A stretch of DNA of 64,000 nt from positions 1 to 64,000 of the forward strand of contig DFQH01000008.1 in assembly GCA_002377695.1 (NCBI GenBank), written 5' to 3'. Source of the stretch: Citromicrobium sp. UBA3494. Its GTDB lineage: Bacteria; Pseudomonadota; Alphaproteobacteria; Sphingomonadales; Sphingomonadaceae. This document shows positions 6,515-7,991 of the stretch, in pieces; positions within the stretch are counted from its first letter, which is position 1, and every line of letters begins with the position of its first letter. The position numbers were made by a program, and so were the translations under genes. The notes under the pieces are model-generated. The model saw nothing but the letters and a program-made list of their open reading frames with translations, made no database searches and was not told where the DNA came from.

Positions 6515-7309
6515 ATGGCGATAACCTACGTTGCCCGCGCGATCGCCCCGCTGGTGGATTTCGTCTATCCACCGCGCTGCCCGTTGTGCGGAGATGCGAT
6601 CGCGAAGGGGCCCGGACTGTGCGCAGCGTGCTGGGACACGCTCGACCTGCCGGGCGAGCCCGCCTGCATACGATGCCAGCTGCCTCTTCCCGCCGCTTCG
6701 GAAGGGAGCGTCTGCGGGACCTGCATCGCCCATCCACCCGGGCATGACGGGGTCGCCGCGGCCGCGCTCTACACCGAAACTGCGCGCCAGCTGGTCCTGC
6801 GGTTCAAGCATGGTGGCCGGATCGGCCTGGCCAAGCTGATGGGTCGGCTGATCGCAGCCAGACTGGCGGATGCGCCCCGCGATGCCGTGCTTGTGCCCGT
6901 GCCGCTCCATCGCGTCCGCCTGTGGATGCGCGGTTACAACCAGGCGGCCTTGCTGGCGCACGCCATCTCCGGACACACCGGCCATGCCGTAATGGTCGGC
7001 GGTCTGCAGCGCGTTCGGTTCACCCCAAAGCTTGGCGGGCTGGGGCGAGCGCAGCGAGCGAAGACGATCCGCGGCGCGATTGCCGTGAAACGCGGGGGCC
7101 CCCAGGTTCTGGCGGGACGCGATGTGATCCTGGTGGACGATGTGCTGACCAGTGGCGCGACCAGTGAAGAATGCGTGCGCGTGCTGCGCAAGGCTGGTGC
7201 GAAAAGCGTGAGGATCGCGTGTTTCGCTCGGGTGCCGGACCCCGCTGCGCAACACACCGGCCCGCAAAACGAAACGCCCGGGACCGATACGATCCCGGGC
7301 GCCGCGTGA
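6515..7309 (+). CDS. ComF-family phosphoribosyltransferase-like protein
   Basis: A 264-residue double-zinc-ribbon/phosphoribosyltransferase protein related to ComF, which in competent bacteria helps take up single-stranded DNA; in most others the role is unclear. The N-terminus carries a CPLC ... CAAC ... CIRC ... CGTC set of cysteine pairs (a zinc ribbon). The C-terminal half ends in the PRPP-binding loop VILVDDVLTSGAT. The ATG at 6515 is preferred because GGGAG precedes it; a GTG at 6482 would add eleven residues with no ribosome site. It is divergent from the methyltransferase gene. The last 35 bases of the coding region also form a strong terminator for a minus-strand transcript. Confidence 0.88.
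   Translation: MAITYVARAIAPLVDFVYPPRCPLCGDAIAKGPGLCAACWDTLDLPGEPACIRCQLPLPAASEGSVCGTCIAHPPGHDGVAAAALYTETARQLVLRFKHGGRIGLAKLMGRLIAARLADAPRDAVLVPVPLHRVRLWMRGYNQAALLAHAISGHTGHAVMVGGLQRVRFTPKLGGLGRAQRAKTIRGAIAVKRGGPQVLAGRDVILVDDVLTSGATSEECVRVLRKAGAKSVRIACFARVPDPAAQHTGPQNETPGTDTIPGAA
7265..7301 (-). terminator. Rho-independent terminator for a minus-strand transcript, inside comF
   Basis: On the minus strand, CGCCCGGGA/TCCCGGGCG forms a perfect 9-bp stem (7293-7301 with 7275-7283) with a 9-base loop. It is followed at once by TTTCGTTTTG. No minus-strand protein gene lies upstream of it for at least 600 bases, so it should end a non-coding transcript from 7310-7600. On the plus strand the hairpin has no T-run, so it is not a comF terminator. 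Confidence 0.72.
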
Positions 7310-7475
7310 CGAAATCTCTATGGGTCACCCGGCCGTTCCCCCGAAAAGCCGAACGGCAACCCAAATCCCTCGTCTTCACATCGCCGGCAAAACCCCCAAC
7401 CGGCAATGTGCCCCCTGAACCCTGGCGCGTCTGTGTGGCGCCTCGGTCTGAAGGGCGACCGTCTCCGGTCACGAA
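7265..7475 (-). ncRNA. Candidate structured RNA, 6S-like in size and layout
   Basis: The 296-base gap between comF and hisI has no plausible gene but folds well on the minus strand. CGTGAC pairs with GTCACG (7473-7468 with 7310-7305). Inside it GGTCGCCC pairs with GGGTGACC (7460-7453 with 7330-7323). Next comes a side hairpin GCCGTTC/GAACGGC (7357-7351 with 7338-7332), and last an 11-bp apical hairpin (7410-7400 with 7387-7377). The closed unit is about 170 bases and is followed by a terminator. One long irregular hairpin with a central opening is the plan of 6S RNA, but I cannot confirm any 6S signature. It does not look like SRP RNA, RNase P RNA or tmRNA. Confidence 0.45.
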
Positions 7476-7605
7476 ACACAGTCTTCGTGAAGCGCCGCCT
7501 GCTTGCAACGGTCCCGTTGTGTTAGCGAAAGGATTCGTACAACAGTGTTGTGTGTAAGCAACAATATGGCCGCCGCAGGCCTGAAAATGGATAGGAATTG
7601 TTCGC

Positions 7606-7977
7606 ATGAATGACGAGGACCGCGAAACCGGCGGCCGCTTCGTGCCCAAATTCGATGGGCAGGGGCTGATGACCGGGGTGGTGGTGGATGCCTCTACCGG
7701 CGAAGTCCTGATGGTCGCGCATCTCGACGAGGAAGCGCTCGCAGCCACCCGTGAGACCGGCCTCGCGCATTTTCATTCGCGTTCGCGCGGGGCCTTGTGG
7801 TGCAAGGGCGAGACCAGCGGCAACGTGTTGCGGGTGAAGGAGATTCTGGTTGATTGCGATCAGGATGCGCTGGTCATCCGGGCAGCGCCCGCTGGCCCGA
7901 CATGCCACACGGGCGCGCGCAGCTGTTTCTACCGGAAGCTGGCCGACGATGGCCGGCTTGAGCGGATTGCGAGTTGA
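7606..7977 (+). CDS. hisI: Phosphoribosyl-AMP cyclohydrolase
   Basis: This enzyme catalyses the third step of histidine biosynthesis, opening the adenine ring of phosphoribosyl-AMP. The length of 123 residues is normal for the single-domain (HisI, not HisIE) form. The metal and catalytic motifs are all visible: [10 protein letters not shown] around residue 65, DCDQDAL around 85, and [14 protein letters not shown] at about 97-110, with the zinc-binding cysteines. The ATG at 7606 has a weak AGGAA ten bases upstream. It stands alone, away from other his genes. The structured minus-strand region lies just upstream, so its promoter must sit in 7475-7605. Confidence 0.95.
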
Positions 7978-7991
7978 CCTTTACGTAAAGG
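7978..7991. promoter_or_regulatory. 14-bp palindrome, probable operator of the MerR regulator
   Basis: CCTTTACGTAAAGG is a perfect palindrome lying between hisI and the MerR-type gene, 17 bases before its ATG. With the flanking TTGA it resembles the LiuR operator as I remember it from proteobacterial fatty-acid and branched-chain amino-acid regulons (a TTTACG...CGTAAA type site). It is therefore a likely autoregulatory site that also controls the downstream acyl-CoA dehydrogenase. Confidence 0.68.

Follow-up and report, generated by a model that had tools for sequence, protein, structure and literature searches.

We found that the minus strand of the gap between comF and hisI almost certainly carries a standalone RNA gene, judging from its comparison with relatives. 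In the window, by which we mean the whole 64,000-nt stretch of DNA analysed, the predicted RNA of about 208 nt runs on the minus strand from about 7473 to a T-run at about 7266 (7266..7473), its 5' end being placed from the register of the promoter and its 3' end from the terminator. The comparison shows a kept locus, upstream elements at fixed spacing, covarying helices and a conserved terminator. The gene itself is well supported, while its mechanism, regulator and targets are what we infer. The RNA most likely serves as a regulatory sRNA that pairs by conserved G-rich motifs. We regard it as rather probable that 7473-7266 encodes a structured non-coding RNA that would act in trans with Hfq, pairing its G-rich motifs with C-rich mRNA stretches, under a regulator that binds a palindrome upstream. 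The initial annotation had proposed an orphan RNA on the minus strand that ends within comF at a terminator of its own, and synteny, covariation and the conserved promoter region strongly support this proposal.

The RNA converges with comF (6518..7309, plus strand) and diverges from an ORF at 7606..7977 (plus strand), which we take to be hisI. Both ORFs were syntenic in 15/15 loci of the first DNA search, and the order comF-hisI-merR was kept in all 15. A palindrome, TTTACGTAAA, was seen at window 7980-7989 directly before merR (8009) and may be an operator for the MerR regulator. Over the gap itself, minus-strand ORFs are mechanical only, such as the one at 7318..7479 (53 aa), and none carries the marks of a gene, which bears out the earlier claim that no minus-strand protein gene needs the terminator. 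An ATG occurs within the ATGAGGG motif in 32/59 loci; the downstream frames vary from locus to locus, and in the window this position lacks an ATG. ARAGORN reported no tRNA anywhere in the window.

A DNA search of 60 relatives detected the gap in 8/9 congeners, the ninth having a diverged copy (L094), and in 6 genomes from other genera it recovered a short stretch of the 3' part. Allowing up to one mismatch, the 3' motif TCGTCACGYGGCGCCCG was present in at least 136/298 genomes of the family, many of them by chance. Among the loci fetched for this motif, 41/46 with the exact motif and 3/13 with one mismatch were located between comF and hisI; the other five exact-motif loci (L052, L063, L065, L067, and L093) and ten one-mismatch loci were dropped. 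Together with the 15 loci of the first DNA search, this gave 59 loci for alignment. The covariance model R1, seeded with 43 of the 59 (alignment A1), recovered 59/59 loci, including the 16 outside the seed, with scores from 48.2 to 170.1 bits. In the window's own genome it gave a single match (7269-7434, minus strand).

We then applied R1 to 196 genomes of the order, of which 83 matched at E <= 0.01, in 26/64 genera and with a tail of weak scores reaching 22.8 bits; the other 113 had no match at this threshold. The matches listed within the order all belong to the window's own family. Three of 142 genomes of the class matched, one of them outside the family (G465, 38.8 bits). At this match there is no more than a terminator hairpin following an ORF, and spread beyond the family was rejected. 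More than one match was found in seven genomes of the order. The extra matches of G349, G177, G096, G252, and G288 cover the terminator part of the model only, the one in G398 overlaps the main match on the opposite strand, and one extra match of G080 (27.9 bits) spans the model. By R1, a single copy of the predicted gene is thus found in the window's own genome and appears to be the rule elsewhere.

Named genomes were also scanned for the promoter signature, with at least 119 matches, one each in 80 listed stretches. Among the matches listed, the signature occurs in Erythrobacter, Qipengyuania, Altererythrobacter, Tsuneonella, Croceibacterium, Croceicoccus, Novosphingobium, and others. Of the compound-signature sites in the 39 genomes described below, all that were fetched (21/21) lie beside comF and hisI and, with 8 loci from the model search, make up 29 further loci. 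In total, the RNA gene was located between comF and hisI in 59 aligned loci and these 29. On this comparison, the RNA is a predicted family that is not in Rfam 15 and ranges over the Novosphingobium/Erythrobacter group and its relatives.

To describe the structure, we compared folds with shuffled sequences and analyzed covariation in alignments. The minus strand folded better than shuffles (z of -5.62 for 7265-7480 and -4.44 for 7255-7560) versus a z of -1.73 for the plus strand, in agreement with the earlier claim that the minus strand of the gap folds. Within the window's genus, six local helices were followed in 9 sequences, keeping 63/63, 112/126, 100/108, 145/162, 72/72, and 151/153 cells paired, with double changes in 5/6 helices. 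The 5' hairpin (7455..7472, minus strand; helix 7472-7466/7461-7455) is paired in all 63 cells, with one double change. Further towards the 3' end is the G-rich motif GGGTTCAGGGGG (7411..7422, minus strand), a candidate pairing site that is conserved in alignments A1 and A3 and is partly paired in the window's own minimum-energy fold. It is followed by a hairpin with a GGGGG loop (7377..7410, minus strand), the apical hairpin of the initial annotation, which was indeed kept in 100/108 cells with 4 double-changed pairs. A helix GACGA/UCGUC then encloses an inner hairpin (7351-7330) whose loop is G-rich (7308..7374 in all, minus strand; 145/162 and 72/72 cells) and corresponds to the near-invariant helix 4 of A3.

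Alignment A3 covers the other genera and consists of 27 of the 59 loci, the better-alignable subset without the window's genus, for which the separate 9-sequence set stands; 28 loci had been chosen, and L083 was left out because its start is too far downstream. Its structure has 55 pairs in 8 helices, with 92.2% of cells paired. Of the 55 pairs, 26 are double-changed and still pair, a number reached by 0/500 shuffles; most of the structure was itself derived from this alignment's consensus, and related rows inflate the shuffle test. When partners were slid by 1-3 columns, pairing fell to 33.5-46.8%. Helix 1, the counterpart of the 5' hairpin, has double changes in 5/6 pairs, and helix 6, a hairpin added by hand, has only 66.7% of cells paired. 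In a wider alignment of 43 sequences, 8/21 predicted pairs were double-changed; these belong to the terminator and the GGAYCC/GGRUCC helix. The ACGAUGAGGGA/UUCGUCACGU helix shows no covariation because it hardly varies. Most predicted helices leave out the GGUUCAGGGGG motif, which is highly conserved, and G-runs recur in loops.

The RNA ends in a predicted intrinsic terminator (7269..7307, minus strand; stem 7303-7273, tail TCGTTTTGCG) that overlaps the 3' end and stop codon of comF. The terminator scan by itself was not significant (1 found, 0.6 +/- 0.9 in shuffles), yet the hairpin is conserved with compensatory changes, so that the terminator placed inside the comF end by the initial annotation is upheld: 151/153 cells are paired in the 9 congeners, and its counterpart, helix 8 of A3, has 4 double-changed pairs. 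The overlap in the window, and a terminator that adjoins the comF end in syntenic loci, would also fit an RNA that regulates comF in cis as an antisense transcript, acting on comF mRNA or via transcription collision. The structure upstream of the overlap is, however, conserved and covarying, and loci of a second group described below have no comF in reach; we consider such a cis-acting role improbable.

We next asked whether the RNA could be a 6S RNA, as the initial annotation had suggested from its size and a single-rod plan. A 6S-like RNA that binds RNA polymerase would be expected to share what the gap RNA does have, namely its size and long-range complementarity close to its ends. However, the search with 6S (RF00013) and all other Rfam families that had been proposed gave nothing at the gathering score in the window, and 6S had no match at E <= 10 on 6900-7900. 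A whole-genome search located an RF00013 match elsewhere in the same genome (G000:C6:133150-133318, locus L001) at 48.3 bits, just over the cut-off of 46.4, followed by a reading frame that is presumably ygfA. The gap RNA is not taken as 6S because the genome has this separate match over the Rfam cut-off.

The fold also argues against 6S. The two rod stems of the initial annotation (7473-7468/7310-7305 and 7460-7453/7330-7323) can pair by sequence, but the minimum-energy fold contains neither. Across the 9 congeners the first stem was kept in 53/54 cells, while the second was kept in only 57/72, and neither has a double change. The local hairpin 7472-7466/7461-7455, with its one double change, competes with them. 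Aligning the congeners yielded double changes in five of the six local helices and none in the proposed rod. Both 6S RNA and the comF-hisI RNA are standalone intergenic RNAs of similar length, but 6S is a single rod with a large central bulge, whereas the comF-hisI RNA is a chain of separate hairpins. With a match over the cut-off at another locus, none at the gap, a multi-hairpin fold and a second rod stem that is not kept, 6S was rejected as the identity of the RNA and is extremely unlikely as its function. In relatives (17 loci and 5 loci), permissive scans with Rfam 15 families gave only sub-threshold matches. In 6900-7900 of the window, an sX6 match over the terminator (9.9 bits) and a c-di-GMP-II-GAG match inside hisI and outside the RNA (17.4 bits) were likewise sub-threshold and were taken as chance.

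Upstream of the RNA, we identified a control region with an operator-like palindromic box, TTGTTGCTTACACACAACA (TGTTG-N8-CAACA; 7546..7564, minus strand). In 50 sequences outside the window's genus, anchored on the palindrome and compared without gaps, the conserved positions were TTGTTGCACGATAACCACA at 0-18, CAAAATC at 28-34, CTTT at 55-58, TG at 76-77, and A at 80; the box was placed by hand in two of these loci. We read these offsets as a putative -35 element at 56-61 and -10 element at 79-84, 17 nt apart, which would place the start at about 91. Sequences of the window's genus depart from the CAAAATC element and have, at the same offsets, the -35-like TTGCAA (7503..7508, minus strand) and, 17 nt from it, the -10-like AAGACT (7480..7485, minus strand), both placed by hand. 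The RNA has its own promoter and intrinsic terminator as far as the sequence alone can tell, and a strict sigma-70 scan reported no promoter at the predicted RNA start. The compound signature was found once each in 39/119 genomes and in none with the reversed control, the signature having been drawn from the same sequences; the window's own genome, which lacks the CAAAATC form, is not among the 39.

The arrangement suggests a sigma-70-type promoter that would be helped by a regulator at the TGTTG-N8-CAACA palindrome, the centre of which lies about 81 nt before the presumed start. TTG-N8-CAA is the spacing of CRP/FNR-type sites, and the palindrome shares it. Elsewhere in the window's own genome, the operator with at most one mismatch gave 13 matches at 11 places, whereas the reversed control gave 1. 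A further perfect TGTTGC-N6-ACAACA box, at G000:C5:139278-139295, may point to an additional target of this regulator.

Some members of the family have the RNA gene and its promoter region at a different locus (L180-L190, L063, and L065), as if the two had moved as a unit. These are eleven low-scoring R1 matches (L180-L190) together with two of the dropped motif loci; in the few kilobases fetched around each, neither comF nor hisI was present. Frames adjacent to some of them look like LolC-type or prolyl-tRNA synthetase genes, which are presumed names. In most of these loci the RNA is shorter and has a motif resembling GGUUCGGGGAG, a G-run and a terminator of the same kind. Nine loci have their best box score at the RNA; among these, TGACA is found at offset 57 in 9/9 and TA 17 nt further on in 8/9, matching the offsets of the first group; the distance from box to -35 is likewise that of the window. 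L065, L184, L185, and L187 were left out of this count, their best box score lying elsewhere in the locus, and L065 and L185 nonetheless have TGACA and TAG 17 nt apart. The second-group loci had been detected by their RNA part, and the shared offsets therefore give fairly independent support for box, promoter and RNA being one gene.

These observations bear on whether there is an RNA gene at all. The conserved blocks could instead be the promoter region of hisI together with the end of comF transcription, and in the window the palindrome does lie 42-60 bp ahead of the hisI start codon. However, the T-run is on the minus strand only; the covariation is seen on the minus strand; the distance from box to terminator varies less (sd 12.3) than that from box to hisI (sd 18.3, measured to the start of the BLAST match); and the second group has the box with no hisI in reach. 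Such an account is very unlikely, and we retain a minus-strand RNA gene.

For the mechanism of this RNA, the simplest model is Hfq-helped pairing with C-rich mRNA stretches, to which we give slightly less than an even chance. The RNA would act in trans, and its GGUUCAGGGGG motif and G-rich loops would pair with C-rich stretches of mRNAs. Hfq is encoded in the genome, outside the window, by two PF17209 matches in a row in one 215-aa frame (G000:C1:76892-77317). This frame has the arrangement of a tandem Hfq. The exact complement CCCCTGAACC occurred 163 times in 39 genomes against 65 for the reversed pattern, a control that is not matched for codon usage, and some of the matches are the RNA gene. 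In the window's own genome, the exact-complement search gave four sites besides the RNA gene, 0/4 of them at an evident gene start.

The RNA might instead be a sponge or scaffold, whose repeated G-rich loops and near-invariant long-range helix would bind a dedicated protein, with mRNA pairing not its chief function. Helix 4 and the repeated G-rich loops point this way, as does the finding that target sites for the G-rich motif show no sign of lying at gene starts. RsmY/RsmZ-type RNAs have several G-rich hairpin loops behind an upstream palindrome, and the comF-hisI RNA resembles them in both respects; its G-runs, however, are not a constant GGA, and the genome has no CsrA. The search for CsrA (PF02599) found 0/1 in the window's own genome, where the control profiles matched, and a CsrA sponge was rejected. 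With CsrA, the best-known sponge protein, absent and the partner still hypothetical, a protein-binding role is possible but doubtful.

Among pairing sRNAs, GsrN of Caulobacter is described as having a C-rich loop and a sigma-EcfG promoter (PMC5869019). It is likewise an alphaproteobacterial sRNA with an exposed run of a single type as its pairing site, but the runs of the comF-hisI RNA are G-rich and its putative promoter is of another kind. A figure legend of the same paper names Erythrobacter litoralis as being without an apparent gsrN-like gene (PMC5869019). The CCCC loop of CcnA, also from Caulobacter, is reported to pair with GGGG in 5' UTRs (PMC8959179); compared by description only, the two RNAs are alike in a loop run that pairs with a complementary run and differ in that the comF-hisI RNA carries the G-runs. 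Both identities were rejected for their opposite run polarity. No description of the comF-hisI RNA was found in searches of open-access papers.

A more speculative reading, which we consider possible but clearly less likely than not, is that the RNA is clade-specific with a dedicated control region and perhaps a global regulator through a protein partner, comparable in role to 6S or Rsm RNAs and related to neither. It is based on the operator-plus-element combination, which occurs once per genome where present, on the near-invariant long-range helix and on the repeated G-rich loops. If true, it would mean that a global regulator acting through a protein partner fills a 6S- or Rsm-like part in these bacteria. 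Several of the host bacteria are studied for the breakdown of lignin and pollutants, and the alignment, covariance model and promoter signature make the RNA testable at once in tractable Novosphingobium strains. Dozens of genera have retained the RNA gene next to comF and hisI, and the spacing of its upstream elements is exact to the base; it is likely to be important to these bacteria.
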